A program made the translations under genes and the position numbers. Of a DNA stretch of 64,000 nt, positions 42,023-60,158 are shown one piece after another (the first letter of the stretch is position 1; the number at the start of each line of letters is the position of its first letter). This stretch comes from an uncultured Candidatus Saccharibacteria bacterium (lineage in GTDB: Bacteria; Patescibacteriota; Saccharimonadia; Saccharimonadales; Saccharimonadaceae), in the NCBI GenBank assembly GCA_946548715.1, contig CAMNPZ010000001.1:1-64000 (forward strand). The letters run 5' to 3'. The notes beneath the pieces are model-generated. The model made no database searches, had not been told where the DNA came from, and was given only the letters and a program-made list of their open reading frames with translations.

Positions 42023-43357
42023 TTACTGCAATGATTGCATATATAAGAGTAGTTCTTGTTTAATAAAGTCGTCCTTCACTTGCTCGAGCTCCGCCATAAA
42101 TCTAGGTGCTTGTCGCTTCAACCGCTCTGTACGATATTTTTCGTATGCCTCCATTTCCGAATCCGACAAAGTTTCCGGGAAATTCCGGCCTTTGTAATGT
42201 AACAACAATTCCGGCAATCTCTCATCAATAAAATCTGGATGAAAATCCGTTAGCTTCGACGGCTCTGCATTCCGCACCGCCGACACCTTAATTCTGTCCC
42301 TATCATTCAGAAACCCATCATAGAGCGCCGCCTCCGGCTCCACCGCCGGCGGAAACTCCGGCCGCTTTTCATACTGCCCACGCATCTGCTCCGCAAATTC
42401 CGGATGGCTTAGCAAAGTTTTGAGATTGTTCTCTACTATTTCCTTCGTCAATCCTATCTTTTTCCATCCATCTCCCGACTCCAACACCCCCATCGGCGCC
42501 ACCGCCGGACACTTGTTGTAACACAATTCCTTTACGATTGGGAAATAAGATTCAGGACTCTGTTTCAAAAGTAATTCCAAATCATAACGCAAGTCAAATA
42601 CCAGCACATTCCCATTTCGCCCAGGAGCTAGCGGAAACACCACCGTCGCCTTATTATACTCATTCGAATATCGTCCTGAAGCATATACAAACGGTTGCGG
42701 CTGCGCCAAGTTCACTAATCGCTGCACCGCTCGTTTATCACGCATCTTTAATAAATAGTCAAACATCTTAGGCTGTTTGTCGCGTATCAACTTCGCCACT
42801 GCTATTGTGGCATACACATCCGACAACGCATCGTGCGCATGCTCATGCGACACACCGTTTAATTTCGTAATCAATTCCAACCGGTTCGTTGGCTTGCCAT
42901 CCTCCCGAAATGGCCATTCAATCCCCTCAGGTCTGAGCGCCCGCGTCAACCTCACCACATCCAATATATCCCACCGTGACCTTCCGTCCTTCCATTCCCA
43001 TTCATAGGGGTCATAGAAATTCCGCCACAAAGTCGCCCGCATAAATTCATCATCAAATCTCACCGTATTATATCCCACCGCTACAGTATTCGGCACAAAT
43101 ACTTCCTCCGTCACATATCGACAAAACTCCGCCTCGCTTATTCCATCCATCAAAGTTTGCTGCGGCGTAATTCCTGTCACCGCTATCGCTCCTGGACTCG
43201 GTAAGGCATCGTCTGTCATTTTCACTAGTACATTTACTGGTTCACCCACTGGCGCGAGTTCCATCGTTGTCCGCTGTCCCGCAAACTGCATCAGCCTATC
43301 TTCTCGCGGATTCAATCCTGAAGTTTCAAGATCGTAAAAGAAAAATGTTTTATCCAT
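42023..43357 (-). CDS. sbcB: Exodeoxyribonuclease I
   Basis: FFFYDLETSGLNPREDRLMQFAGQRT, GYNTVRFDDEFMR, HEHAHDALSDVYATIAVA. Confidence 0.93.
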   Translation of the reverse strand: MDKTFFFYDLETSGLNPREDRLMQFAGQRTTMELAPVGEPVNVLVKMTDDALPSPGAIAVTGITPQQTLMDGISEAEFCRYVTEEVFVPNTVAVGYNTVRFDDEFMRATLWRNFYDPYEWEWKDGRSRWDILDVVRLTRALRPEGIEWPFREDGKPTNRLELITKLNGVSHEHAHDALSDVYATIAVAKLIRDKQPKMFDYLLKMRDKRAVQRLVNLAQPQPFVYASGRYSNEYNKATVVFPLAPGRNGNVLVFDLRYDLELLLKQSPESYFPIVKELCYNKCPAVAPMGVLESGDGWKKIGLTKEIVENNLKTLLSHPEFAEQMRGQYEKRPEFPPAVEPEAALYDGFLNDRDRIKVSAVRNAEPSKLTDFHPDFIDERLPELLLHYKGRNFPETLSDSEMEAYEKYRTERLKRQAPRFMAELEQVKDDFIKQELLLYMQSLQ

Positions 43358-43431
43358 GTTTAATTCTTATCATACACAGCATCTTTTTTCAACCCACGAT
43401 ATGCACCCCCCTATCACAAACAAAAGAAAAA

Positions 43432-43453
43432 CCCGGGTCACTCTCGACCCGGG
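43432..43453 (-). terminator. GC-rich hairpin terminator
   Basis: CCCGGGTC-actctc-GACCCGGG, followed on the minus strand by TTTTTCTTTTG. Confidence 0.8.
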
Positions 43454-43464
43454 CGAAAAAAAGA

Positions 43465-43821
43465 TTACATGAACTCGTACGCACGGCGTCTCCGAGCCCA
43501 CTTTTTGATGGAGGCAAGCCGCCTCCTATTTATTTGGAGGTTTATGCTGCTCGTCACCTTTCCGGCGATGCGCAGCAGCACAAACTGCGACGGGAAAAGT
43601 AAAATACATACAATCAACGTGAAGATGTTGTATTTCATCGTCACGTCAGAAAAGAACAGAAATACCTCAAAGATAATGCACATCATCTCAAGCGTCTTCA
43701 CTTCCTCGATAGGTATTTCTACAAGAATCCTCATCAGCCGACTGCTTACAGAATACCTCCGTATACCGATGCAAGCCATCAGCAACAGCGACACGAAAAA
43801 CCATCCCATCCAAACAATCAT
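43465..43821 (-). CDS. Small membrane protein, unknown
   Basis: 118 aa, several hydrophobic segments, GGGGGTG SD-like upstream. Confidence 0.6.
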   Translation of the reverse strand: MIVWMGWFFVSLLLMACIGIRRYSVSSRLMRILVEIPIEEVKTLEMMCIIFEVFLFFSDVTMKYNIFTLIVCILLFPSQFVLLRIAGKVTSSINLQINRRRLASIKKWARRRRAYEFM

Positions 43822-43981
43822 GTTTACACCCCCATCTAAATGTACTTAAGCGACTCCCCAGTCGCCCCCTTAACTTATCTTATACATTATACCACACATG
43901 GTTATTTTTGTCAATATCTGCACCAGTACCCCAGCAAATATCAACCACGATACCAAACCAGCTATCGTGTATTTACAGCTA

Positions 43982-44713
43982 TTATTTCCCCACCATCATC
44001 TTGTCATAATCCATACCATATTGCGCATATTGATATCGCATCGACGCTTCCTCGAGTTCCTCTGACATCTTGGCCAACTCATCAGTTTTTTCCACCGCCA
44101 TCACAATAAACTTCAGTGGCTTATTCTTGCCACCACATATTTCCATCGACTCACCATAGGCCAACTCACCAGGAATCGTAATCTTGCGTATGCCACCAAT
44201 CTTCATTCCTTTCATACCCTGAGTCCACCCCTCAATCAATCCCATCGAAGGGTCAAGTATCTTCGAAAAGCTAGTCGGTTCATCATTATTATCAAACGTC
44301 GAATCAAACACCGACTCATCTGCACACCATCCTACATAGTAGGCCAAATAATTTGAGCCATCTTCCTTTACTTCTTCTCCTGAACCCTCTGTCAAATCTC
44401 GCGATTTCAAGCCTCCTTCATTGGCCGAATTCTCATTATAGCCAGAAATCTCCGACTTATACTGAATGAATTTATCAAAATCACTCTTAGTCTTCTCACT
44501 AAACTCCGCCACCACTTTCTCATAAGCCGCTTCATATTCAGCCTTTTTCTCATCACTAATTTCATCCGCTTCGGCACTAGTATCACTGCTAGAGCCACCA
44601 CTGTTCAACACAATCGCCGCATAGCTAGCAATCATCGACCCTAACATAATCACTGCAATCAAAATAATAAAAAACCGTTGTTTCGGACTGGTTTTCAGCT
44701 CTTTTTCTTCCAT
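43982..44713 (-). CDS. FKBP-type peptidyl-prolyl isomerase, membrane anchored
   Basis: N-terminal TM; LIEGWTQGMKGMKIGGIRKITIPGELAYGE. Confidence 0.9.
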   Translation of the reverse strand: MEEKELKTSPKQRFFIILIAVIMLGSMIASYAAIVLNSGGSSSDTSAEADEISDEKKAEYEAAYEKVVAEFSEKTKSDFDKFIQYKSEISGYNENSANEGGLKSRDLTEGSGEEVKEDGSNYLAYYVGWCADESVFDSTFDNNDEPTSFSKILDPSMGLIEGWTQGMKGMKIGGIRKITIPGELAYGESMEICGGKNKPLKFIVMAVEKTDELAKMSEELEEASMRYQYAQYGMDYDKMMVGK

Positions 44714-44787: not shown

Positions 44788-45252
44788 TTATTCAGCCTTT
44801 TTCTCAGGTTTCTTTAAGATTGCCACCTTCTTAAACGACCCACCAGCCTTTTTAATGGCTTCGATGGCCGATTTCGAAGCAAACTGTGTTTCAAGTTCAA
44901 CCTTCGACTTTAGCTCACCGCGCGAGATTACCTTCACCTTCACGTAAGGAGACGAAATCAAATCAGCCTCAGCTAGCTTCAAGTTATCAACCTTACCAGA
45001 TAGCTCATTCAAACGATCAGTGTAGACCACCTCGGCCTTAGTATGGAAAGACTTAAACCCTTTTAACTTCGGCACAGCTTGCATAATTGCACGTTGACCG
45101 CCCATGAATCCTACCGGCATCTTGCGATGACCGGTACGAGCCTTCTGGCCCTTGGTGCCACGACCAGCCGTTTTACCTTGGCCAGCCGCAATACCGCGGC
45201 CTTTACGACTCGGACGCGTATTCTTCTCTACGATTAAATCATTGTATTTCAT
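44788..45252 (-). CDS. rplO: 50S ribosomal protein L15
   Basis: RKGRGIAAGQGKTAGRGTKGQKARTG. Confidence 0.96.
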   Translation of the reverse strand: MKYNDLIVEKNTRPSRKGRGIAAGQGKTAGRGTKGQKARTGHRKMPVGFMGGQRAIMQAVPKLKGFKSFHTKAEVVYTDRLNELSGKVDNLKLAEADLISSPYVKVKVISRGELKSKVELETQFASKSAIEAIKKAGGSFKKVAILKKPEKKAE

Positions 45253-46067
45253 TACTTGTCCTCCTTCTTAGCGGACTTCTTTGCGGTTGTCTTGGCAGTG
45301 GCCTTCTCTTTAGTGTCAGCCTTTTTAGCTGCAACCTTTTTCTTGGCTTCAGTCTTCTTAGTTGCAACCTTTTCTTTCACTTCAGCCTTTTTAGCCTCAG
45401 TCCCCTTCTTAGTCTCCTCTTTGTCAGCTGCTTTCTTTACTGGCATCGGCTTGCCTTCATAAGCCACCCACTTCTCGCGAGGCATCTGAGCTTTCAAGCC
45501 TTCAATTACAGCGTAAGCTATATTGACCTTATTGGTAGAACCAAGCGACTTCGAAATCAAGTTTTTGACTCCAGTCAAACCTACGATAGAACGTACCGTA
45601 CCACCGGCAATAATACCAGTACCAGGTGCCGCAGGTTTCATTAATACATCTGCACCAGTCACCTTGGTACGAGACTCATGGCAAATTGTCTCGCCATTCA
45701 TATTAAATGTAATCATTGACTTCTTTGCCTTACGGGTAGCCTTATTGACGGCCGTCGTCACATCGTTGCCCTTAGCAACACCAATACCAACTTTATTCTT
45801 GTGGTTACCAATTGCTACTAGTGCTTTAAAGCGCATTCTACGACCACCAGCCACTGTACGTGACACGCGGTCTACTGCAATCGTGATTTCATCAAATTCC
45901 TTTGGTCCAGCGTCTGCACGCACTCTATCGCGACGGTTGCGACGGTTCATTCTCTTTCCAGCAATATCACGCACTTGCTTGGTTGCTGCAACCTTGTCCT
46001 CCATCTTAAGAGTACCAGATTTATTGATTACTCTCGGAGCTTTATTTGTATTATTATTCTCTGGCAT
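45252..46067 (-). CDS. rpsE: 30S ribosomal protein S5 with Lys/Ala-rich tail
   Basis: RVSRTVAGGRRMRFKALVAIGNHKNKVGIGVAKGNDV; start at MPENNNTNK. Confidence 0.95.
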   Translation of the reverse strand: MPENNNTNKAPRVINKSGTLKMEDKVAATKQVRDIAGKRMNRRNRRDRVRADAGPKEFDEITIAVDRVSRTVAGGRRMRFKALVAIGNHKNKVGIGVAKGNDVTTAVNKATRKAKKSMITFNMNGETICHESRTKVTGADVLMKPAAPGTGIIAGGTVRSIVGLTGVKNLISKSLGSTNKVNIAYAVIEGLKAQMPREKWVAYEGKPMPVKKAADKEETKKGTEAKKAEVKEKVATKKTEAKKKVAAKKADTKEKATAKTTAKKSAKKEDK

Positions 46068-46068
46068 A

Positions 46069-46398
46069 TTAGAACTCCAATCCTTCTTTGCGGGCCGCTT
46101 CAGCAAGTGCACTCATTCGGCCTGCGTATAGTTTAGCGCCACGATCAAATACTACTTTCGAGACCTTAGCTGCTTTGGCTTTCTTGGCGATTTCCGCGCC
46201 AATCTTTGCAGCTTTTTCTGTCATCGTACCAGTGGTTTTAGTACCAACTGTCGTAGCATATGCTAGTGTCGTTTTCTTGTCATCGTCAATTACCTGAGCG
46301 GTAATATGTACATTCGAAAAATGTACTGTAAGGCGTGGCCTTTCACTTGTACCGTGAATCTTTGCACGAGTACGCTTGGCTCTGTATTCAGCTTTCAT
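46069..46398 (-). CDS. rplR: 50S ribosomal protein L18
   Basis: RPRLTVHFSNVHITAQVIDD...FDRGAKLYAGRMSALAEAARKEGLEF. Confidence 0.95.
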   Translation of the reverse strand: MKAEYRAKRTRAKIHGTSERPRLTVHFSNVHITAQVIDDDKKTTLAYATTVGTKTTGTMTEKAAKIGAEIAKKAKAAKVSKVVFDRGAKLYAGRMSALAEAARKEGLEF

Positions 46399-46934
46399 TA
46401 TTTCTTACCCGCCTTTCCTGCCTTACGAAGTATCACTTCGTCGACATATTTAATACCTTTACCCTTGTAAGGTTCAGGCTTCTTCAAAGCACGGATTTCT
46501 GCCGCTACCTGACCGACTTTTTGTTTGTCGATGCCAGATACGGTAATTTCCATCTTGTTGGTAGCAAGTTGCACACCTTCTGGAGCTGTGTATTTCACTG
46601 GGTGTGAAAAACCAAGCGCCATTTCAATCTGCTGACCGCCGCCAGACAAACGGAAACCGACTCCGTTGATTTCTAGTTTTTTCTCATAGCCCTTGGTTAC
46701 ACCAACTACTGCGTTATTAAGTAACGCACGTTGGAGACCATGCCAAGCTCGAGATTTCGGCTCGTCATCCTCACGGGTGACACGAACCTCTGTTCCTTCA
46801 ACCGTAGTTTTAGTCTTCGGTTGCACCGGCACAATGAGTTGACCCTTCGGGCCCGCAACAGTAATCTCGCTGTCGCCGACCGTAATTGTCACTCCTGCCG
46901 GAATTTCGATAGGTTGTTTTCCGATACGACTCAT
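46398..46934 (-). CDS. rplF: 50S ribosomal protein L6
   Basis: MSRIGKQPIEIPAGVTITV...KPEPYKGKGIKYVDEVILRKAGKAGKK. Confidence 0.97.
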   Translation of the reverse strand: MSRIGKQPIEIPAGVTITVGDSEITVAGPKGQLIVPVQPKTKTTVEGTEVRVTREDDEPKSRAWHGLQRALLNNAVVGVTKGYEKKLEINGVGFRLSGGGQQIEMALGFSHPVKYTAPEGVQLATNKMEITVSGIDKQKVGQVAAEIRALKKPEPYKGKGIKYVDEVILRKAGKAGKK

Positions 46935-46965
46935 ATCTTCCCTTTGTTAAACTAATATTCCCACC

Positions 46966-46994
46966 ATTATACCACAAATCCTCTTAAGATGCAA
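46966..46994 (-). promoter_or_regulatory. Candidate promoter upstream of rplF
   Basis: Minus strand TTGCAT-17 bp-TATAAT. Confidence 0.6.
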
Positions 46995-46995
46995 C

Positions 46996-47026
46996 AAAAC
47001 ACACCTAGTTTACCTAGGTGTGTTTT
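46996..47026. terminator. Terminator after the adhesin gene
   Basis: AAAACACACCTAG-ttta-CCTAGGTGTGTTTT-type hairpin. Confidence 0.8.
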
Positions 47027-47042
47027 ATGCTTGAAGTACTGC

Positions 47043-50000
47043 TTATTTACGTTTCGCGAACTTTGTAGCGCCTAGCAAGGTCACTGTACTTACCACTATC
47101 GCAACAAACAGCACAAAGGTGTTATCCACCACCGCTTCGCGCCCTTCAGATTCTACCACTCGCGTAGCCCGACCAGTCTCCGGAGCTTCAAATGGTACCT
47201 CTTCACCACCACATCCACCTTCTAGGCACGGATCGATAATTTCGTACTGGTTCTCAACCTCAATCACCGCTTCATCGTACTTCAAGACTTCAATCACCTC
47301 ACCATCACCATACGACGTCAAAGTGTAATTATCTACTTCCGCGTTCTCTTCCACCACCATATATGCACCAACCGGAATTTCGGCCTCTACCGGACAAATC
47401 GCCACCCCATCCGAAATCTCACAATCATTTGCAAAACTCAACGTCAACTCGCCATCGACGCCAAAGTCTTCAGGACCTACCACGATAAGGGTCAAGTCCT
47501 GCAATTTCTCAGCATCAATGCCAGAGAACAGCTTCACTACCGTCAATGAACCAGCCATGCTCCGATTATTCGTCACCGTCATCGACAAATTCGCCTCATC
47601 CCATACAAACTCTTCATCGCCATCTTTTGCAAACTCACAGTTCTTCACGAAAGTATTAGTCATTGTTGTCTCATCCGCTTTTGAAAGTTCCGATGCGCAA
47701 CTCACGGCCACCGTCGCTGAACCTTCCACCAAGTCGTAACCATACCATGTATCTGTTTCCGCAATCTCATACTTGAAGCTTTCTTCCTTCTGATCAGCCG
47801 ACACCGGTACTTCCACCGTAATTTGTCCATTTTCATCCGTCACATACTCTTCGCCGTTTATCGTAAATACCACACCTTCCATCGCATCACCATCATCGTC
47901 AACCTTACTCAGGACAAACTCTTTCTCACCTTCATACTCAATCTTCTCTTCAGCTGGCGTCCAAGTATTCGTCACCGTCAAGGCATCCGCGTTTTCTGCC
48001 GTCCACTTACCTTCAAGCAATTCGCCATTATAGACGTATAGCGTATCATCATTAGCGCCGCCCAAGGTCCCCTCGCCAATACCAGTCTCTTTCACTGTAT
48101 AGGTAATCTCTTCGCCCTGATTTGCATACACCAGCACCGTCACCGCTTCCGACTCCCACTCACCATAGCCATTACCATCCAAACGAATCGTCTGCACCTC
48201 GTCATTCTTATCATTTGACAGTTCCACCGTGATAAATGTTGGTGCCACCGACGGCAATACTTCGCTATCCACATTCCATACTTTCTTAAACTTCAATTCT
48301 TTCGTCTCAGGCTCATGTGTATTTGTAAACGTAAACACACCATCTGTCATTTTCCCACCATCCGACTCATATCCGGCCACATTTTCTTCAACCACCGAGT
48401 ATACATATTCAGTCGCATCTTCGTCTGCTCGTGGCAGATCCGTCCATTCATACGCCCAATCCTCAGCCGCCAAAGTCGTGGTACGATACGACTCACCATT
48501 ACGTAGCAGCGTTACCCCAAGTCCTTCCGGACGTGCTCCATCGCGATCGTCATCATCTTCCCAAACCTTCGCTACCTTATAATGTACATCGCGAATCTTC
48601 TCATAAGTGTTCTTAATCGTAAACTTCGCTTCTGCGGCTTTTTCTACCGCTTTCGCCTTGTCATTTTCGCCAGTCACTGTCAAGGTCAGTAGCCCATCAA
48701 ACTCCGCACCCGACTCCACTACCTTATATTCACCAGTTGGGATTTTACCGGTCAAAGCGTACTCGTATACACCTTCTTTAACCTTCGTAAACTTATCAAA
48801 TGCAATCTCCTGCGTCTCGAAATCTTCCGGTCCAGTTACGGTAAACTTCAATCCATTATTACGTAAAGCCGTTCCCGAAATACCAGCCGTCTCTTTCCGA
48901 ATCACTAGCGACGTCGCCAAGCTTCGTTCATTCACTACTTTCACAGTTCCCGTCTCACCATTCCATTCAAACGCTTCCGCGCCGTCTTCTGATAGTTCAC
49001 AAGTCTTTGTATAAGCATTTACTAGCTTCTCCGCATCCGCACTGGCAAACTTACTCGTACAGCTCACCGTTACAGTCGCAGTGCCCTCCACTAAATCATA
49101 TCCTTCACGTGTCGACTTCTCGCTAATCTCGTACTCAAAGGTTTCTTCTTTCTTCTCATTGTCCACTGGCACCGTAACCTTAATTTCGCCATTCGCATCA
49201 GTCGTATAATCATCGCCACCTATCGTAAACACTACACCTTCCATCACCTTGCCGTCGCCGTCGTATTTCTTAATACCAAACTCAGCCTTACCCTCAAATA
49301 CAATTTCCTCAGTTGGCTTCGTCCAAGTGTTTGTTACTTCGTATCCGTCTATACTCTTCTCCCACTGCCCTTTCAAACTGTCACCATCGTACATTACGAT
49401 AATGCTCTTACCTTCATCGAACCCAGTCTCGCCTAGCTTCGACTCTTCTACTGAATAAGTAATCTCTTTGCCACCTTCATTCTTCAATAACCCAGTAAAC
49501 GTCCATTTCCATTCATTCGCTGCCGAAATCGGTACCGGTTCGCCTACCATCCATTTTTCTTTCTCACCTGCATCATTCGTCACTTCGCCATACAATTCAA
49601 CCGTAATCGTATCTGGTCTAGCCAGTTCATTACCTTCACCCGCCCAAATCTTCTGCACCGTCAAATCACCATCGTCATTATATAGTGCCGGCTCATGCTC
49701 ATTCGTAATCACACCGTCAGATACAGTTACAGTATAATCATCGTCACCAGTAAACTCCGTACATTCAATCGCATCACCAGAGCCCTTGCAGGTAGAAGCT
49801 TCCACGATTTCATAGTTAATCGTCTCACCATCAGCATTTTTCTCCGGCAAATTCGAGAATGCGTAATCATCCTTATCCTCAAGCGCCAAAGCTTCATAAG
49901 CTACAAACTTACCCTCATCATTCTTTACTGCCACGAAATAGCCCTTGTAGTTCTTGCGTAGCCCATCTCTGTCTGCATCATCATTCCACACCTTCGCCGC

Positions 50001-53000
50001 CGTCACGTCCGTAGTCTTATACTCATTCGTAAACGTATCTTCATAATCCGACACCATCAAATCAATTTTGCCAGTCTCAGTATTATATGATACTGCCACC
50101 GTTAGTGAAATACCTTCAGCCGTATCTCCGACCGCTTCCACACTTGGCACATCGAATGACTCTGTTACCGTATAAGTGTAAGTATGCCCCACATCTTTAT
50201 TGGTAAACTTAATCCGACCAAAGCCAACTGTTTGGTTTTCCTTATTAGCCGTAATCGTAGTCTCTTTCGGCATTGGCGCGCCCTCGCTACCAGAAATCGT
50301 AAAGTTGAATTCATCCGTACTTCGCCAATCACGTCCCTGCAAGTTCTTCGTAAACTCTAACTCACCTTCCTTACCGCCATAAGTATTATCGCCTTCATAT
50401 ATATTATATATGGTTCGAGAAGCCTTCGAATAAGTCTTCGAAACCAGTCCAAGCGTACCATCACCATTATCTTTAACTTCGAGCGTCACCACGATATCTT
50501 CGTCACCTTCTAATCGCGAGACGCCATCACGGAATAAACTATTGCCATCCTCATCGGTCGTCTTCTCTGTAATTGTGTAAGTATAAGTGCCAGCATCGGT
50601 GATAGTTGGGACAAATTCCGCCGTGTCTCCCGACAGTGTCAGTGGCTTACTTTCTACAGTTTCGCCATTACCAGTCATCACGAAGGTAAACTGATCCGAA
50701 GCAATCCAGAACGGTTCGTATCCGCTCGCGAACGCCTTAAGTGCCAGAATCTTCGCATCATCCGGATCAAGTGGCGTAACAGCATAATCATTAGTAAACT
50801 CTTCTTCATTGTCGCCTTTTTTGATTGTACCAGTCTTCGTAGTTTCGGCACCCTGGTTAAATCCAGGCTTAGCCGCTTCTATGATTTCGTAAGTCCAACC
50901 AGCCGGAATATTCTTGATTTCGCAAGTCTCGTTATGCTTAACGGCCTTACAAGTCTCCGCATCAGTTCGTACTGGATTAGTGTCGCCTGCCTTCTCGTAG
51001 AAGTTCACCGTAAAGCTAAACTCTTTCTCTTGCGCTTTCTGCAGATCACCACTTGTAGCTGTCACGGTTTTCTTAATAATCAAATCACCCGATTCGAGAT
51101 AATTCGTTACCGTAGCCTGTGCACTAGCATTGCCGTATACTTCATTTACACCCTGCTTATTATCACTACCGTCGTACATTACCACTTCGTAATCAATTTG
51201 GTTTCTTGTGTAACCAGCCGGCAAAGTCTCCGTCACTGTATAGGTAGTACCAGTAGGCATATCCTGAATCCTGATTTTCTGGTTCACTTTGATTTTCTCG
51301 GTAATCGTGCCACCAGTATAAGTAGTCTTATCGGTGCGCTCCTTCACTGAGCCATCGGGATTATAAGTGTAAACACGGTAAACACCAGTTTCTTCGCTAA
51401 GATTTATCGTAATTTCATATTCATCCTCAATCGTAGTATCTTCTTTATCGTTATTAATTACGGTTTTACCGACTAGAATACCACCATTTAAGGTATTTTC
51501 AGCCGATAGCTTGGTCAACATTTCTTCGTCGATTTCAGCCGACTTGCCGTCCTCACTAAACACCACATCGTGAATCTTGCCACCCTCACCGATAATCATT
51601 GGGTGATAAAGTCTTTTGGTGATATGATAATGATTTGTACCATCATCAGTTAAGGTATAGCTCTCATCAAAGAGATAGTCGTGGCCTTCTTCAAGTACAA
51701 CATATTCGTCACTGCCAACCGTCACTACTCGACCCAGGTTCCTCAGCTCTTCAGTCTCCGCAGTCAGTTTCTTCATTACACCCGGTGCCACCGCGTAAGT
51801 GTAACTATTCTTCCATTCATCCGCACTAGCGCCCTGCTTATTGAAGACAAAAGTCCTTACTTCTTCATCATCAACTTTAAGCTTTAAAGTAATCTCTTTA
51901 ATATCATCACGCTGACTTGGGTCCATCTCATCTGCCCAAAGTTTCGTCACTTCAAGCTTAGTTTCAGGCAAATCAGTCGGGCCACGTTCCTCGGTAAAAT
52001 CAATCGGCACCGATATTTCCGAATATTCAGTTTCACCAGTATCTTCGTTCTTCGTAGCGGTTCTGAATCTAAACGTCGCTACACTGTTAGTAATAAGCCT
52101 AAAGCTCCCATCCTCTTTTTCGCCCAGACCAAACTTCGCAAGGTCCGACTCGCTACAAGCTTCCCTACCGTCATTTCTAATCGCCGCGATACAATCCATC
52201 GCTTCCTGGCTCGGCCAAACCGTAAAGGTCACCGAAGCTTTCTCACCATTTTTCAAAGTCTTGTGCTCGCCCGGATTCCAATGTACGCTTCCACCTTCAA
52301 ACGTCGCTCCAGTCCAATCGTCTCCCCACGATTCTGGCACGTCATAACGGAAATTCCCAGCCGTACCATCAACTTCTGTCGAAGTCGCCGGCGTGATACC
52401 ATCTTCGATTTGAAGGTCGGCCACCGAAAGACCCATTTTAATCTTATCTACAATCTCCGCAAAGGCCGCATTTAGTGCAGTCTGATCAGTGGCGTCATAA
52501 TATGTACCACCAATATTGCGCATGTTAGTAGCATCACCAAACGCACCAACAGCGTACAGTTCCTTATTATCATCAGCAACAATCAAATCAGCAATTTCCT
52601 TCGCTGCATTGAAATTCCTATGTGGACTCGGGTCAGTTTGACCATTGCCCCAGACCGAACATTGAGTATTCCAATTCTGTCGATGATCACTTCTACAGCC
52701 ATCGCCATCGAAATAACCCGCACCATATTGGCGCTCACGATAGGTTGGATTACCATCAGAAACGAATATAATATAAGTTTTGTCGTTATCGCCAAACGAA
52801 ATATTATTAGCTGTTGTTAATGCAGCTTCCCAGTTTGTGCCACCGTTATCATCCGTAGCATCGACCCATGAACTAAAGGTATCATAATCCGTAGTTGGAG
52901 ATTCGTGTGTCGTGTTGGTTTTTATAAACGTTGAGAAATCAACAAATGACATCTCTACCACATCCTCAAGTCCAGGAGTGTTAGGGTCATTTTGCGAAAG

Positions 53001-53339
53001 AAGTTCGTTGGCTAAACCATTCACGGCAGATTTAGCTACCGCCAAACGTGTACTTTGTCCAGCTGAATCACCCATACTACCAGACGAATCGAACACCACC
53101 ACCACATTTGCCTTGGTCGCATCCGTCTTCTGGCTTGACACGCCCTCAATCTCGAGCGTGATGTCGTAGGTACCATCGTTGTTGGAATGGACCTTTTTTA
53201 GACTTTTTGGAATGTTTTCCTCCTCCGGCACAATTCCAGCCGGTTCATCCGCATAGGTGCTCGCGAAAGTTATTGGCAAGGAACCAAAAACCATCACCAC
53301 CGCCGCGAAAATATTGAAAATTTTTCGCTTTAAGCTCAT
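47043..53339 (-). CDS. Giant surface adhesin: VWA domain plus Cna-B/pilin-like repeats and PETG plus C-terminal TM anchor
   Basis: Signal peptide; VVVVFDSSGSMGDSAG (MIDAS); repeated KVWxDDxDRDGxRP modules; C-terminus EAPETGRATRVVESEGREAVVDNTFVLFVAIVVSTVTLLGATKFAKRK. Confidence 0.9.
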   Translation of the reverse strand: MSLKRKIFNIFAAVVMVFGSLPITFASTYADEPAGIVPEEENIPKSLKKVHSNNDGTYDITLEIEGVSSQKTDATKANVVVVFDSSGSMGDSAGQSTRLAVAKSAVNGLANELLSQNDPNTPGLEDVVEMSFVDFSTFIKTNTTHESPTTDYDTFSSWVDATDDNGGTNWEAALTTANNISFGDNDKTYIIFVSDGNPTYRERQYGAGYFDGDGCRSDHRQNWNTQCSVWGNGQTDPSPHRNFNAAKEIADLIVADDNKELYAVGAFGDATNMRNIGGTYYDATDQTALNAAFAEIVDKIKMGLSVADLQIEDGITPATSTEVDGTAGNFRYDVPESWGDDWTGATFEGGSVHWNPGEHKTLKNGEKASVTFTVWPSQEAMDCIAAIRNDGREACSESDLAKFGLGEKEDGSFRLITNSVATFRFRTATKNEDTGETEYSEISVPIDFTEERGPTDLPETKLEVTKLWADEMDPSQRDDIKEITLKLKVDDEEVRTFVFNKQGASADEWKNSYTYAVAPGVMKKLTAETEELRNLGRVVTVGSDEYVVLEEGHDYLFDESYTLTDDGTNHYHITKRLYHPMIIGEGGKIHDVVFSEDGKSAEIDEEMLTKLSAENTLNGGILVGKTVINNDKEDTTIEDEYEITINLSEETGVYRVYTYNPDGSVKERTDKTTYTGGTITEKIKVNQKIRIQDMPTGTTYTVTETLPAGYTRNQIDYEVVMYDGSDNKQGVNEVYGNASAQATVTNYLESGDLIIKKTVTATSGDLQKAQEKEFSFTVNFYEKAGDTNPVRTDAETCKAVKHNETCEIKNIPAGWTYEIIEAAKPGFNQGAETTKTGTIKKGDNEEEFTNDYAVTPLDPDDAKILALKAFASGYEPFWIASDQFTFVMTGNGETVESKPLTLSGDTAEFVPTITDAGTYTYTITEKTTDEDGNSLFRDGVSRLEGDEDIVVTLEVKDNGDGTLGLVSKTYSKASRTIYNIYEGDNTYGGKEGELEFTKNLQGRDWRSTDEFNFTISGSEGAPMPKETTITANKENQTVGFGRIKFTNKDVGHTYTYTVTESFDVPSVEAVGDTAEGISLTVAVSYNTETGKIDLMVSDYEDTFTNEYKTTDVTAAKVWNDDADRDGLRKNYKGYFVAVKNDEGKFVAYEALALEDKDDYAFSNLPEKNADGETINYEIVEASTCKGSGDAIECTEFTGDDDYTVTVSDGVITNEHEPALYNDDGDLTVQKIWAGEGNELARPDTITVELYGEVTNDAGEKEKWMVGEPVPISAANEWKWTFTGLLKNEGGKEITYSVEESKLGETGFDEGKSIIVMYDGDSLKGQWEKSIDGYEVTNTWTKPTEEIVFEGKAEFGIKKYDGDGKVMEGVVFTIGGDDYTTDANGEIKVTVPVDNEKKEETFEYEISEKSTREGYDLVEGTATVTVSCTSKFASADAEKLVNAYTKTCELSEDGAEAFEWNGETGTVKVVNERSLATSLVIRKETAGISGTALRNNGLKFTVTGPEDFETQEIAFDKFTKVKEGVYEYALTGKIPTGEYKVVESGAEFDGLLTLTVTGENDKAKAVEKAAEAKFTIKNTYEKIRDVHYKVAKVWEDDDDRDGARPEGLGVTLLRNGESYRTTTLAAEDWAYEWTDLPRADEDATEYVYSVVEENVAGYESDGGKMTDGVFTFTNTHEPETKELKFKKVWNVDSEVLPSVAPTFITVELSNDKNDEVQTIRLDGNGYGEWESEAVTVLVYANQGEEITYTVKETGIGEGTLGGANDDTLYVYNGELLEGKWTAENADALTVTNTWTPAEEKIEYEGEKEFVLSKVDDDGDAMEGVVFTINGEEYVTDENGQITVEVPVSADQKEESFKYEIAETDTWYGYDLVEGSATVAVSCASELSKADETTMTNTFVKNCEFAKDGDEEFVWDEANLSMTVTNNRSMAGSLTVVKLFSGIDAEKLQDLTLIVVGPEDFGVDGELTLSFANDCEISDGVAICPVEAEIPVGAYMVVEENAEVDNYTLTSYGDGEVIEVLKYDEAVIEVENQYEIIDPCLEGGCGGEEVPFEAPETGRATRVVESEGREAVVDNTFVLFVAIVVSTVTLLGATKFAKRK

Positions 53340-53372
53340 TTTGTACTCCTTCTTCGCTTACTAATTGCCGCC

Positions 53373-53401
53373 ATTATATCACGCGTGTCAAACAGAGGCA
53401 A
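53373..53401 (-). promoter_or_regulatory. Candidate promoter of the adhesin gene
   Basis: Minus strand TTGCCT-17 bp-TATAAT with extended TGA upstream of the -10. Confidence 0.6.
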
Positions 53402-53486
53402 CGATAAGCGCCATCAGAGTAAGCACAAGGTCAAACAAAAAACTCTTGCAGAACCTGTCATTGTTTATGAAATTTGATATAATAAT

Positions 53487-53585
53487 AACGTAAGCAGTAA
53501 ATTCTGTTTACGTTACGTACTCCTTGTTTAATGGCTTCAAGCAAGGGTATCAGAAAAAGAGACCCACTAAAGGTCTCTTTTTCTT
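53487..53585 (+). ncRNA. Candidate small structured RNA (plus strand)
   Basis: CTGTCA-17-TGATATAAT ending at 53483, hairpins AACGTAAGCAG/CTGTTTACGTT and CCTTGTTT/AAGCAAGG, terminator-like AAAGAGACC/GGTCTCTTTTT. Confidence 0.35.
53554..53585. terminator. Terminator between rpsH and the adhesin gene
   Basis: AAAGAGACC-cactaaa-GGTCTCTTT with A/T tracts on both sides. Confidence 0.7.
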
Positions 53586-53601
53586 GCTTGCTACAATTGT
53601 T

Positions 53602-54003
53602 TTACCAAACTTTCACAAGTATCTCACCGCCCAAGCGATTCTTCTTCGCTTCACGACCAGTCATTAAGCCTTTCGAGGTAGATACAATAATCATACCGCG
53701 ACCAGACTTAATCACGGGTAATTCATCGGCCGAAGAATACACGCGACGACCAGGCTTGGAAACCTTACTAATCTCGTTAATTCGAGCGGTAGCACCTGGC
53801 TCGTTGATAACGACGTGAAGCATTCCACGTGGCTCACCAGCTACAATATCAAATGAAGATACATAGCCGTTCTTCGCCAGCACTTCCACCACCCCAGCCT
53901 TCAACTTAGAAGTCGGGACGAGGATTTCATTCTTGGAAACCTTAATCGCATTACGAATACGCGTAATAAGGTCAGCAATTTGATCTGTAGATTGTAATGA
54001 CAT
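53602..54003 (-). CDS. rpsH: 30S ribosomal protein S8
   Basis: QIADLITRIRNAIKVSKNEILVPTSKLKAGVVEVLAKNGYV. Confidence 0.96.
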   Translation of the reverse strand: MSLQSTDQIADLITRIRNAIKVSKNEILVPTSKLKAGVVEVLAKNGYVSSFDIVAGEPRGMLHVVINEPGATARINEISKVSKPGRRVYSSADELPVIKSGRGMIIVSTSKGLMTGREAKKNRLGGEILVKVW

Positions 54004-54018: not shown

Positions 54019-54288
54019 CTACCAGCTACTCTTAGTTACACCAGGAATCTCGCCTTTACTTGCTTTTTCCCGGAAATTAATACGTGATAAACCAAATCGG
54101 CGCATATAACCGCGTGGACGACCATCCAACATATCGCGGTTTTTCAGCCTTGTTGGCGACGAATTACGTGGCAACTTCTGAAGACCTTCAAGGTCACCAG
54201 CTGCTTTTAGTTCAGCACGCTTCTTAGCGTATTTTTCATACATTTTCTGTCGTTTTGCGTCACGGAGGACTGCAGACTTCTTAGCCAT
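54019..54288 (-). CDS. rpsN: 30S ribosomal protein S14 (long, zinc-free form)
   Basis: [36 protein letters not shown]; no CxxC. Confidence 0.95.
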
Positions 54289-54289
54289 A

Positions 54290-54922
54290 CTACTTCGCCT
54301 CCTTTACAAACGGCATTCCGAAGAGTTCTAGCAATTTAAGACTTCCTTCCTTTGAGCCATTTTTAATAATAAATGTTACTTCGAGACCATGCAATACCGA
54401 TGCGTCTTCGAAAGTAATCTCTGGGAATACGGTCTGCTCCTTGAGACCAAGGTTGTAATTCCCTTGTGCATCAAATGCCGTGCGCGATACGCCATGAAAA
54501 TCACGTACATGCGGCAAGGCAATATTAATGAGCCTGTCTACAAATTCATACATTTTATCGTTACGAAGAGTCGTGAGATAGCCCACTGGCGCACCCATTC
54601 CTTTTCGAATCTTAAATGTCGCGATTGATTTCTTAGCCAGTCTAGAGGTCGCCTTCTGACCAGTAATCTTCGCAAGTGTTAGCTCAACCGTTTCGGTAAA
54701 GCGCTTATCCTCACGCTTTTTACCTACGCCAGCCGACACTACGACTTTAACGAGCTCTGGTACTTGATTGATATTATCAAGACCAAGTTCTTCTTTCAGT
54801 TTCGCCTTTAGCTCACTATTATATAGAGCTTTCAGGCGTGGTTGTGCCTTCGCGTCAGCCTTTACTGCCTTCTTTGCAGTTTTGGGGGCTTTAGCTTCAG
54901 CAGCCGTTTTCTTTTCCGCCAT
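54290..54922 (-). CDS. rplE: 50S ribosomal protein L5 with Lys/Ala N-terminal extension
   Basis: [14 protein letters not shown]...[29 protein letters not shown]. Confidence 0.95.
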
Positions 54923-55197
54923 TATTTAGCTCCTTTCTTAAGCTTATTCTTATCGGTAGATTTCTCGAATTTTGCCGCTTCGACCAATTTCAAGTTCGAC
55001 AAATCAATTCCGAGCTGAATGGTTTTCTTGCCACCGGTTGGGTTAAGATACGACTTGCGTAGATGTCGCTCCACTACACCAATACCTTCAAGACAAGCTT
55101 TGCCATTTACGCGATCAATTTTTACGATTTTAGCTTCAGTACCTTTGTGGTTACCGCTAATTACACGTACTTTATCATTTACTTTGAGAGTAGTCAT
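54922..55197 (-). CDS. rplX: 50S ribosomal protein L24
   Basis: KVNDKVRVISGNHKGTEAKIVKID (KOW). Confidence 0.95.
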   Translation of the reverse strand: MTTLKVNDKVRVISGNHKGTEAKIVKIDRVNGKACLEGIGVVERHLRKSYLNPTGGKKTIQLGIDLSNLKLVEAAKFEKSTDKNKLKKGAK

Positions 55198-55198
55198 T

Positions 55199-55567
55199 TT
55201 AGAGTACCTCCGGTGCTAAGCTAATAATCTTTGTAAATCCAGCATCCCTAAGTTCCCGAGGAATCGGGCCAAACACACGCGTTCCCTTGGGAGTCTTGTC
55301 ATCGTTCACAAGTACTGCTGCGTTTTCATCGAAACGAATGGTTGAACCATCCGGACGACGAATCGGCGCAACCGTACGTACAATCACGGCACGTACTACG
55401 GCCTTCTTCTTCACATTACCAGTAGGAGAAGCTTCCTTGACCGAGCAAGTCACGATATCTCCAACCTTGGCATAGCGAGCGCGAGTACCACCGAGTACCC
55501 GGATCACTCCAAGCTCCTTGGCACCAGAGTTATCAGCAACTTTTAATCTTGTTTCCTGTTGTATCAT
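55199..55567 (-). CDS. rplN: 50S ribosomal protein L14
   Basis: [27 protein letters not shown]. Confidence 0.97.
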
Positions 55568-55920
55568 TATTCCTCCCCTTTCTCATCAGCTTCCGCTAGT
55601 TTAGCTTTCGCGATTTCATCTGCACCGACTTTTTCTGGCAATTCAATCTCATTCACATCTTCCTTAAGTTCAACTGTACCATGCGACCGCTCCAATATCT
55701 TTACTAAAGTATAAGCTTTAGTCTTGGAAATTGGCCTGGTCATTGCAATCTCAACCCGATCACCCTTATGGGCCTCGTTCTTTTCATCGTGTGCAGTATA
55801 TTTACGAGTCTTCGAATACTGTTTGCGATAAAGTGGGTGAGTTTCCCGTGAAACGATGGAGACGGTAATGGTCTTATCGCGCTTGTCAGAAGTTACGGTT
55901 CCAACTAGAGTGTGTGCCAT
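55567..55920 (-). CDS. rpsQ: 30S ribosomal protein S17 with acidic tail
   Basis: [44 protein letters not shown]. Confidence 0.95.
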
Positions 55921-55921
55921 C

Positions 55922-56341
55922 TTAAAACTCCTCTTTCTTAATTATTTTACATTTCACCGGCAACTTGTGAGAAGCAAGACGCAGAGCCTCTTTAGCTTGC
56001 TCAGGAGTTACGTCGGCGATTTCAAACATCACCGTACCGGCTTTAACTTTTGCTACATAAAATTGCGGTTCACCTTTACCGGAACCCATCTTTACATCAA
56101 GTGGCTTCTTGGTTACAGGTGTATGTGGGAAAATCCGAATCCAGATTTTACCACCACGCTTAATATAACGGGTAATTGCTTGACGAGCTGCCTCGATTTG
56201 GCGCGAGTTGATGCGCTCATTGTCGAGAGACATCAGACCATAATCGCCAAATGCCACGGTGTTACATCGCGTCGCAATACCTGCATTTTTGCCTTTACGA
56301 ACCTTGCGGTGTGCAAGTTTCTTTGGAATCATAATCGCCAT
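55922..56341 (-). CDS. rplP: 50S ribosomal protein L16
   Basis: [16 protein letters not shown], [40 protein letters not shown]. Confidence 0.96.
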
Positions 56342-56342
56342 A

Positions 56343-56969
56343 TTACTTTTCCCCCTTATAAATCCAAACTTTAACGCCTACGATGCCAGCAATTGTTGGT
56401 GCGTGATGACAGTAAAAGTCAATATCCGCACGCAAAGTGTGTAGCGGCACCGAACCTTCGATGAACTTCTCACGGCGGCTCATTTCAGCACCGTTAAGAC
56501 GTCCAGCAACCTCGATACGTACACCTTTAGCACCAGCATTCATAGTTGATTGCAAAGCCATCTTTACGGCTCGGCGGAAGTTCATCCGCTTACCAAGCTG
56601 GAATCCAATGTTCTCTGCTACCAATTTAGCGTTTAGTTCTGGTTTCTTAACTTCTTCTACATTTATCCGAATCGGACCATCGATAATCTTCTCGAGACCC
56701 TTCTTTAATTCATTGATGCCTGCACCCTGCTTACCGATTACTGTACCAGCCTTTGCTGTCAAAATCGTAATCGTAGTCAGATTAGCGGAGCGTTCAATGT
56801 TGATTCGCGCAATCGTCGGACGCGATTTATACCGATTCTCGATATATTCGCGAATCTTTACGTCTTCCACTAGCCAGTGACGAAAATCCGCCTTCCTTGT
56901 GAACCACTTCGAAGACCAATCTTTGCTGACCTGGAGACGGTAAGAGATGGGATTAACCTTCTGACCCAT
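56343..56969 (-). CDS. rpsC: 30S ribosomal protein S3
   Basis: MGQKVNPISYRLQVSKDWSSKWF, KH domain, MSRREKFIEGSVPLHTLRADIDF. Confidence 0.96.
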   Translation of the reverse strand: MGQKVNPISYRLQVSKDWSSKWFTRKADFRHWLVEDVKIREYIENRYKSRPTIARINIERSANLTTITILTAKAGTVIGKQGAGINELKKGLEKIIDGPIRINVEEVKKPELNAKLVAENIGFQLGKRMNFRRAVKMALQSTMNAGAKGVRIEVAGRLNGAEMSRREKFIEGSVPLHTLRADIDFYCHHAPTIAGIVGVKVWIYKGEK

Positions 56970-56970
56970 A

Positions 56971-57399
56971 TTACTTCTTCTCCTTCTTCGCTTCTGCCTT
57001 AGCTTCAGACTTCACAGTCTTCTCAGCCTTCTCGGCAGTCTTTTTAACTTTCTCTTCGCCTGCGACCTCAACAAATATGTTGGACGAAATCTTCTCATAA
57101 GGCAAAGCACGACCGCGCGATGCCGGAACATATCGACGCATTCTAGTTCCGCTCGTTACAAAAATACGTGCAATCCGAACGGTCTTAGGATCAATCGATA
57201 CCTTAGAATTATTCAATAAATTCGCATTAGCAGACTCTACTGCCTTCAAAACTGCTCTAGCAGCCCGACGTGGCGTATTTTCCAAAATCACTACAGCATC
57301 TGCTACGTAGCGATCACGCACCAAGCTTGCTACTACATTAGTCTTCCTTGGCTGAGAATCAATACCTTTCGCATAAGCGTGTGCAAAGTAAGTAGTCAT
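56971..57399 (-). CDS. rplV: 50S ribosomal protein L22 with Lys/Ala/Glu tail
   Basis: TNVVASLVRDRYVADAVVILENTPRRAARAVLKAVESA. Confidence 0.94.
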   Translation of the reverse strand: MTTYFAHAYAKGIDSQPRKTNVVASLVRDRYVADAVVILENTPRRAARAVLKAVESANANLLNNSKVSIDPKTVRIARIFVTSGTRMRRYVPASRGRALPYEKISSNIFVEVAGEEKVKKTAEKAEKTVKSEAKAEAKKEKK

Positions 57400-57401
57400 A
57401 A

Positions 57402-57695
57402 CTAGTTACCTCCCTTCGCTGCGGCAGCCTCTGCTGCCTTCTTACCACCATGACGCTTAAACTTACGAGTTGGCGCAAATTCACCAAGCTTATGACCGAC
57501 CATGTTCTCCGAGATAAACACAGGCACATGTACCTTGCCATTATGAACGGCAATCGTCCGCCCCACCATCTCTGGTGAAATCGTAGATTGGCGCGCCCAA
57601 GTCTTAATCACGGTGCGATCTTCACTGGAAAGTGCGGCCACCTTTTTCGCGAGTTTGTAGTCCACGAATGGACCTTTCTTCATACTCCTCGACAT
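57402..57695 (-). CDS. rpsS: 30S ribosomal protein S19
   Basis: [18 protein letters not shown]...[34 protein letters not shown]. Confidence 0.97.
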
Positions 57696-58531
57696 TATTT
57701 CCTCTTTCCTTCGTGGCGACTGCGCACGATCATTTTATTAGTTTTCTTATTGTGACGGGTGCGGTAGCCCAGAGTCAACTGACCCCATGGCGTACGAGGC
57801 GCCTTACCAGAACCGTGACGACCACCGTCACCACCACCGTGTGGGTGATCCGTTGCGTTCATTACGACACCACGCACCGTTGGGCGAATACCCTTACGGC
57901 GACGACGTCCAGCCGCACCGATTTTCACATTCTGATGCTGCACATTGGATACGGTACCAATCGACGCTTCACAATCTACCAATACTTTCCGCACTTCGCC
58001 GGATGGCATCTTCAAGGTGGCGTAGCCATCTTCCTTAGCCATCAACTGAGCTTGAGCACCTGCCGCACGCACCATCTGTGCGCCACGACCCGGAGTTAAC
58101 TCTACTGCATACACGAAAGTACCAACTGGGATATTCTCAAGTGGCATCCGGCTTGAATCTTCAACGTCAATCTCTTTACCAGTCTTAAAGGTTGTACCTT
58201 TTGCCATCTTGGTATCAGCGAGCACATAATAATATGTACCGTTTTCATCTTTCACGCGCGCAATCCGAGCTGAACGATTTGGATCGTATTCAATCTCTTC
58301 TACTGTAAAAGTCAAATTCTCTGGTAACTTATATGTTACGATACGATAGTGTCGCTTGACACCACCACCACGATGCCGCACCGTAATGCGACCTTGGTTA
58401 TTCTTACCAGCCTGTTGCTTCTTGGCACGAGTCAAAGACTTCAAAGGTTTCTTTGTGGTAATCTGATCGAAATCCTGTGTCGTCTTCTGCCTCTGCGCCG
58501 GTGTCATCGGCCGATATGCTTTAATTGCCAT
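57695..58531 (-). CDS. rplB: 50S ribosomal protein L2
   Basis: [17 protein letters not shown]...[17 protein letters not shown]. Confidence 0.97.
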
Positions 58532-58935
58532 TATTTATTCTCCTTCCCTGCATTCTTGTCCGCCTTTTTAGCAGCTTTCTCTGCTTTCTTGGCTTCCTTT
58601 GCGCTGGTTTCACTTTCAGGCTCATCGAAAACTCTAATCGAATTGCCTTGCTTTAATCTTACGTATGCAAATTTCTTATCTTGGCGATGCGTAATCCCAG
58701 GATAAGCGTGCTTGCCCTTGCTAAATTTAGTCTTCTTACCGTTACGGATCAAAGTCCTTACATCGGTAACAGTCACATTGAACTCTTTTTCGACCATCCG
58801 AGCGATTTCCTGCTTACCCATAGATTTCTTCACTGGGAAAACATAAATCCGGTTGGTTTGCTCAAGATAGCTCTTCTCGGTAGCCCTTGGCTCTAAGAGA
58901 TGAAGCTGGATGTTCGTATTATCTTCTTTTGTCAT
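58531..58935 (-). CDS. rplW: 50S ribosomal protein L23 with Lys/Ala tail
   Basis: ATEKSYLEQTNRIYVFPVKKSMGKQEIARMVEKEFNVTVTDVRTL. Confidence 0.95.
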   Translation of the reverse strand: MTKEDNTNIQLHLLEPRATEKSYLEQTNRIYVFPVKKSMGKQEIARMVEKEFNVTVTDVRTLIRNGKKTKFSKGKHAYPGITHRQDKKFAYVRLKQGNSIRVFDEPESETSAKEAKKAEKAAKKADKNAGKENK

Positions 58936-58936
58936 C

Positions 58937-59536
58937 TTACTTCTCCTCTCCTATTAACCATGCCGTAGTAGATTTCAGAGCAGCCTCTGAGAATACAATC
59001 GCATCTGCGTTCATAATGTCAAAGACATTAAGATATGTAGCACGAACTAATTTGACGTTTGGTAGATTATTAGTCGAGCGTAGTACCTCTGGAGTCTTCT
59101 CGTTCGCTACGGCAAGCACATTCTTGCCTTCAAGCTTCAAATCCTTTAGTACTTTTACTGCGGATTTTGTCTTACCGTCTAGTTTTACGTCTTTGTCTAG
59201 TACGACGATAGCTTTTTCGGCATTTTTCATCGACAAAGCCTGACGCACTGCGAGCAACTTAGAACCTTTCGATAACTTCTTCGTGAAGTTCTCATTTCCG
59301 GTACGACCGAACGCTACACCACCATGTCGCCAAATCGGGTTACGCGTCGAACCAAATCGAGCCCGACCAGTGCCTTTCTGCTTCCATGGTTTCTTGCCAC
59401 CACCACGCACCTCACCACGCTTCAAAGTCTTTGCGTGCGAAGAACGCGAATTAGCAAGATACGTATCGTAAGCGAGTTTCACGAGCTCGTGATTCTCTAC
59501 AGAGAGTCCAAATACATCTTTATTCAAAGTAGCCAT
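58937..59536 (-). CDS. rplD: 50S ribosomal protein L4
   Basis: GEVRGGGKKPWKQKGTGRARFGSTRNPIWRHGGVAFG. Confidence 0.96.
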   Translation of the reverse strand: MATLNKDVFGLSVENHELVKLAYDTYLANSRSSHAKTLKRGEVRGGGKKPWKQKGTGRARFGSTRNPIWRHGGVAFGRTGNENFTKKLSKGSKLLAVRQALSMKNAEKAIVVLDKDVKLDGKTKSAVKVLKDLKLEGKNVLAVANEKTPEVLRSTNNLPNVKLVRATYLNVFDIMNADAIVFSEAALKSTTAWLIGEEK

Positions 59537-59537
59537 A

Positions 59538-60158
59538 TTACTCCTCTCCCTCCACGCTTACAATTCCTTTATTTGGACCAGGCACAGCGCCCTTTAATCC
59601 AATCAAATTATTCGCAGTATCGATATAAGCTACGGTTAAATTCTTCACCGTTACTTGCTCATGTCCCATACGGCCAGGCATCTTCTTGCCTTTCCAAACC
59701 TTCTGAGGATACATCGAACCAATCGAACCAACTTTACGAATATCACCCTTAAAACCGTGCGTATTGCGTGATTCATTAAAATTATGACGCTTTACCGTAC
59801 CAGCATAGCCTTTACCTTTGCTCGTACCGGTTACCGCCACCTTATCTCCCAATTTGAAACTTTCGACCGTTAGGCTATCGCCCAGCTTCATACCCTCTGG
59901 AATTTCCTCAACGCGAAATTCTTTCAGGACCTTAGGTTCAATATTTTCACCAGCCTTTTTGACGTGGCCGGAAACCGACTTGCTCAGATTCTTACCCTGA
60001 CCGTAGCCCACTTGCACAGCGTTATAACCGTCGGTATCGACAGTTTTTATCTGAGTCACCGTGCACGGACCGGCTTGTAGAATCGTGACCGGAGTCACGA
60101 CGCCATCTTCGCCGATAATCTGGGTCATACCAATTTTGGTGCCGAGAATGACTTGCAT
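59538..60158 (-). CDS. rplC: 50S ribosomal protein L3
   Basis: MQVILGTKIGMTQI...GKGYAGTVKRHNFNESRNTHG...MPGRMGHEQVTVKNL. Confidence 0.97.
   Translation of the reverse strand: MQVILGTKIGMTQIIGEDGVVTPVTILQAGPCTVTQIKTVDTDGYNAVQVGYGQGKNLSKSVSGHVKKAGENIEPKVLKEFRVEEIPEGMKLGDSLTVESFKLGDKVAVTGTSKGKGYAGTVKRHNFNESRNTHGFKGDIRKVGSIGSMYPQKVWKGKKMPGRMGHEQVTVKNLTVAYIDTANNLIGLKGAVPGPNKGIVSVEGEE

Follow-up and report, generated by a model that had tools for sequence, protein, structure and literature searches.

The window analysed here is a 64,000-nucleotide stretch of a genome that named relatives place in Candidatus Nanosyncoccus (Saccharibacteria), a genus represented mostly by ruminant-gut genomes. Its minus strand carries the S10-spc ribosomal cluster, one of the best-conserved bacterial gene orders and a fixed marker in metagenomics. 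The canonical spc operon reads rplN-X-E-rpsN-H-rplF-R-rpsE-rpmD-rplO-secY (PMC1924603). The window shares this gene order on either side of an island, but the operon is broken between rpsH and rplF and its second half has a new putative promoter. The two genes, contiguous in the canonical operon, lie 6667 bp apart in the window, with a single open reading frame (ORF) between them. The succession of rpsH, a 2098-aa adhesin ORF, rplF, rplR, rpsE and rplO that the first-pass annotation had described is confirmed. The features are as follows, in the direction of transcription:

54019..60158, minus strand: rplC to rpsN, the upstream half of the split operon; all its junctions are closed across the genus
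53602..54003, minus strand: rpsH (S8), Pfam Ribosomal_S8 E 4.7e-38; the left border of the island coincides with the stop codon of this gene
53552..53584, minus strand: predicted terminator hairpin ending the rplC-rpsH half, 14-bp stem, -20.5 kcal/mol
53373..53409, minus strand: predicted adhesin promoter, conserved block GCTTATCGTTG...TGATATAAT
47043..53339, minus strand: adhesin ORF, 2098 aa, assigned by profile search and sequence features
46991..47030, minus strand: predicted terminator hairpin 3′ of the adhesin gene, -25.1 kcal/mol
46966..46994, minus strand: predicted rplF promoter, TTGCAT-17-TATAAT with an extended -10 (TGG)
46398..46934, minus strand: rplF (L6), Pfam Ribosomal_L6 E 1.1e-33; leads the downstream half rplF-rplR-rpsE-rplO
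44788..46398, minus strand: rplR, rpsE and rplO, the rest of the downstream half, contiguous across the genus

Beyond rplO, the window encodes an FKBP-type isomerase and an exonuclease (42023-44713) instead of secY-adk; the spacing 3′ of the FKBP gene is also variable among relatives.

The inserted ORF encodes a protein that begins with a signal peptide and contains a Pfam VWA_2 domain (aa 79–196, E 1.1e-10) with the MIDAS motif DSSGS at aa 84, four stretches of Cna_B (E 2.1e-43), two FctA and two DUF7601 domains. The C-terminus carries an APETG sorting signal at aa 2052, which is followed by a hydrophobic, transmembrane stretch and a KRK tail; the sorting motif of the cargo proteins is xPxTG, not LPxTG. 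The Cna_B repeats align to the MSCRAMM collagen adhesin Cna (PDB code: 1d2p; E 4.8e-30). This likeness covers only the stalk domain, whereas the VWA head and the remainder of the protein differ. A search of the window's genome for sortases gave three matches over the cut-off, all on other contigs and none in the island. NCBIfam has no name for the adhesin, and Rfam has no match in the window. Together, the domains, the MIDAS motif, the sorting signal and the sortases of the genome mark the product as a predicted sortase-anchored VWA/Cna-B surface adhesin.

Both hairpins proposed in the first-pass annotation are present, and their folding energies lie well below those of 500 mononucleotide shuffles of the same sequence. 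The hairpin after rpsH (-20.5 kcal/mol) compares with a shuffle mean of -5.6 and a minimum of -14.6, and the hairpin after the adhesin gene (-25.1 kcal/mol) lies below all 500 shuffles (mean -10.7, minimum -20.7). The built-in consensus terminator scan missed both because the T run sits within the stem, and folding was used instead. The adhesin promoter matches the consensus at 10 of 12 positions and has the TG of an extended -10. In the rplF promoter, the extended -10 is perfect (TGGTATAAT) and the -35 element, TTGCAT, matches at only three of six positions. Over the whole region, consensus matches to promoters and terminators are no more frequent than chance; matches in a single genome are therefore weak by themselves, and the case rests on conservation across the genus.

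This conservation was assessed in 92 distinct complete loci, of which 75 are filled and 17 are under 600 bp. TGnTATAAT occurs within 60 nt 5′ of the rplF ATG in 69 loci and in a relaxed form in 20 more, so that a strict or close variant is present in 89/92 loci and in all 75 filled ones. The same motif is absent 5′ of rpsH (0/54) and at the junction of 21 outgroup genomes. Of the 80 loci with a gap of at least 120 bp, 74 have a terminator-like hairpin 3′ of rpsH, compared with 19 of 204 control windows and none of 12 uninterrupted sites. The adhesin-promoter motif, counted with a loose pattern, is found in 11/92 loci, in 10 of them immediately 5′ of a PxTG adhesin ORF. The 778 kb of ribosomal flank contain no match to it. 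A stricter search with a fuzzy 40-nt motif gave no hits because the block contains an indel. The view of the first-pass annotation that the insert would be an insulated transcription unit dividing the operon in two is well supported by this comparison.

The opening of the junction extends through the genus. Among the 96 species genomes of Candidatus Nanosyncoccus that have rpsH and rplF on a single contig in the same orientation, 79 have 0.6–29 kb between the two genes. Twelve genomes have a gap of up to 116 bp and five have one of 155–577 bp; it measures 0.6–5 kb in 31, 5–10 kb in 22 and 10–30 kb in 26. One genome, G017 (loci L238 and L242), was kept out of the shortest class, as its rpsH and rplF share a strand but rplF is 72 kb upstream; the halves of the operon are fully separated and their order is reversed. 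Adhesin-like ORFs still lie 3′ of rpsH in G017, and no known cargo lies 5′ of rplF. The two genes are on different contigs in 38 genomes, and nearly all genomes are metagenome-assembled. In the comparison with other Saccharibacteria proposed earlier, which covered 21 outgroup genomes of the same order, one from each of 21 other families, the gap is 1–282 bp in every case. Within the genus, the sixteen other S10-spc junctions from rplC to rplO never exceed 600 bp, whereas the rpsH-rplF junction does so in 45/54 cases. The opening is thus confined to a single junction and, in the sample studied, to a single genus. We found no earlier description of the rpsH-rplF locus in a literature search largely limited to open-access papers.

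The cargo differs from locus to locus between the same two flanking genes, which makes the site a hypervariable locus. By approximate class labels, which follow ORF families and a simple sorting-signal rule, the 92 loci comprise 31 with adhesins, 13 with capsule genes, five with both, three with arginine deiminase, five with a leuS...rpoB-rpoC block, 18 with other cargo and 17 under 600 bp. PxTG proteins are encoded in 34 of the 75 filled loci and capsule genes in 18; the 26 filled loci that are not classed as surface-related hold the rpoBC block (5), arginine deiminase (3) or other genes (18). Most cargo ORFs (313/365) are co-directional with the operon. The proteins of adhesin loci range from ~470 to 2170 aa and contain VWA, Cna_B, SpaA, FctA, GBS104-like or Big_2 domains, and a large adhesin often precedes another PxTG protein, ~570 aa long. 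Capsule loci encode sugar transferases, a Wzx-type flippase, UDP-sugar dehydrogenase, epimerase and LytR-CpsA-Psr proteins, together with Wzz-kinase and CpsB/CapC, whose genes usually adjoin rplF. Longer loci (L211, L243, L244 and L246) combine a giant adhesin with a capsule cluster.

One protein cluster, F0, comprises PxTG surface proteins of roughly 470–790 aa from 21 loci, often encoded second after the large adhesin (L067:6533-8245, L089:12166-13896, L153:15819-17528 and relatives). Three members tried against NCBIfam gave no match, nor did one tried alone in Pfam. Three related loci (L070, L215 and L216) carry arginine deiminase, ornithine carbamoyltransferase and a DcuC-family carrier in the same slot. 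In five others, also related (L201, L065, L204, L205 and L208), the core-gene block leuS...rpoB-rpoC lies between rpsH and rplF, which puts the downstream half of the spc operon behind rpoC; this placement apparently arose by one or two translocations, to judge from two changes on the tree.

Alignments of most close pairs end at the rpsH stop codon and resume about 20–60 bp before the rplF ATG. Turnover between these borders is extensive: among 142 pairs with flanks at least 90% identical, only 34 share any cargo ORF at 70% coverage. In L173/L203, L077/L213 and L153/L211, the flanks are 92–95% identical and nothing is shared in the cargo. In L199 and L206, the left 0.6 kb and the right 5.1 kb are kept and the capsule middle is replaced; with L173/L203 and L077/L213, this pair represents a cassette swap between close relatives with conserved ends. 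Sequence divergence of the cargo is also fast in L222 and L224, where the flank proteins are 99.7% identical and the sole cargo protein 79.5%; a relative of this protein in L084 has no Pfam match. Mapped on a flank-protein tree built on 311 columns, the seven cargo classes need 39 changes compared with a shuffled-label mean of 53.6, which indicates some inheritance of cargo class. For the empty state, with its 17 rows, 16 changes are required, a number no lower than chance would give. The capsule families on the whole follow the flank phylogeny (Mantel r 0.75 for Wzz and 0.56 for CpsB), and capsule content is thus partly inherited vertically.

Several loci retain traces of past events. In L210, the final 83 bp of rpsH occur a second time, together with a separate terminator, between the giant adhesin and the capsule cluster (island positions 5352-5434), and we read this duplicate as a recombination scar. 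L079 has an orphan adhesin promoter at the start of a capsule locus, and L058 holds a 423-bp remnant in which a signal peptide is almost directly joined to a membrane anchor, as left by deletion of an adhesin. L235, on the deepest branch of the genus, resembles the outgroups in lacking the promoter and in its gap of 12 bp, and sites with a gap of 35–94 bp have a promoter-like -10 and no terminator. The latter are plausible intermediates, and the two observations together suggest that the promoter came first and the inserts with terminators later. L234 (18 bp, no promoter) stands next to a filled relative and does not fit this order in a simple way.

Integrase-driven insertion was rejected, as no tyrosine integrase (PF00589) lies inside the islands of 60 genomes and the island ends carry no direct or inverted repeats beyond those of mispaired controls. 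Flank incongruence, considered as proof of homologous exchange, gave no signal: congruence across the island (r 0.78) is close to that within the upstream half (r 0.80), and replacement of the flanks during exchange is thus not seen. The genome of the window encodes ComEC. Saccharibacteria are naturally competent, and targeted insertion via homologous flanks works in them (PMC10633639). We infer that transformation with rpsH and rplF as homology arms, together with occasional illegitimate joints, is the most economical explanation, which the L210 scar fits.

The first-pass annotation raised two consequences, growth-coupled expression of the adhesin and recent insertion. The former supposes that ribosomal promoters drive the adhesin by read-through at high growth rate, which would agree with the co-directional cargo and with the six of 80 loci with a gap of at least 120 bp that have no clear terminator after rpsH. 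However, a strong terminator follows rpsH in the other 74 and none is present at uninterrupted sites, the conserved adhesin promoter travels with the adhesin, and the position is also taken by capsule loci and even by rpoBC. We consider growth-coupled expression quite unlikely: with a terminator after rpsH and a conserved promoter of its own, the adhesin is most likely expressed independently of the ribosomal operon. Recent insertion is just one part of the account: the site varies in content throughout the genus, and the adhesin of the window is one allele among many. A site-specific mobile element, either an integrase element or a transposon with the end of rpsH as its attachment site, could account for the border at the rpsH stop codon and for the duplicated 83 bp in L210. 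This duplication is, however, present in only one of 92 loci, the end-to-end repeats are no longer than in mispaired controls, and the islands of 60 genomes lack tyrosine integrases, the one recombinase class searched for, by which the explanation is largely refuted and has a very low probability.

The junction could also be a rearrangement breakpoint, where a promoter-bearing rplF offers a joining place and surface genes are over-represented only as the most mobile ones. The leuS...rpoB-rpoC block in five genomes and the reversed operon halves of G017 are in line with such a breakpoint. Against it, the cargo is mostly surface-related and co-directional, and its arrangements are conserved (a second PxTG protein with the adhesin; wzz-cpsB as the last capsule genes before rplF), so that we regard a mere breakpoint as unlikely. 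Assembly or binning error might be suspected of genomes that are nearly all metagenome-assembled and in 38 cases split the two genes between contigs. Nevertheless, the same borders recur in 79 genomes from unrelated projects with intact flanks and reading frames, the promoter and terminator are conserved, and the named assembly Nanosyncoccus alces (NZ_PRLM01000001) is among the genomes. With an open junction in 79 of 96 separate genomes and a homology boundary that falls mostly at the rpsH stop, misassembly is excluded in practice.

The best explanation, to which we assign a probability of roughly 0.78, is that Candidatus Nanosyncoccus has, at the rpsH-rplF junction within its spc operon, a hypervariable locus for surface antigens that is promoter-insulated. 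In the proposed sequence of events, a promoter would have arisen 5′ of rplF in an early ancestor and freed the second half of the operon from its dependence on read-through. Inserts would thereby have become non-polar and tolerated, with terminators helping. Cassettes would then have been gained, swapped and lost, most likely by natural transformation with rpsH and rplF as arms and by occasional illegitimate joints, a step that on its own has about even odds. Diversifying selection by bacterial hosts, phages or the ruminant immune system would favour surface genes in the slot. The adhesin gene of the window would be transcribed from a promoter of its own, and the protein would be sortase-anchored and bind a ligand via its VWA domain.

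Two kinds of known islands resemble this locus. Capsule (cps) loci are bounded by fixed housekeeping genes, in Streptococcus pneumoniae for example by dexB and aliA. They likewise have flanks that stay constant, biosynthetic cassettes that can be exchanged, conserved genes of the wzz/cpsB type at one end and swaps between close relatives. In contrast to cps loci, the island described here has both its flanking genes in the same essential ribosomal operon, and its one slot is contested or shared by adhesin and capsule cassettes. Gram-positive bacteria also have sortase-dependent islands for pili and adhesins, among them the Streptococcus pyogenes FCT region and islands with GBS104-type tip pilins. 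These share with the present locus VWA tip-like adhesins, Cna_B, FctA and SpaA domains, PxTG signals, variability and a fixed chromosomal site. They differ in that the present island, searched in the genome of the window, has no identified sortase, is seated in the spc operon and belongs to Patescibacteria. The genus-wide distribution of the rpsH-rplF island also sets it apart from both kinds of Gram-positive island.

These findings suggest that an internal promoter can make a core operon a safe landing site. It is possible, although we hold this only tentatively, that the genus uses the gap in its ribosomal operon as its main slot for surface identity. As rpsH and rplF are universal and conserved, DNA taken up from related species would bring ready-made homology arms, and adhesin and capsule alleles may be traded across epibiont species, driving host switching or escape from phages or immunity. 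The sequence of the rpsH-rplF interval would provide a readout of the surface type of a strain, and thereby a handle on host specificity in uncultured Saccharibacteria.
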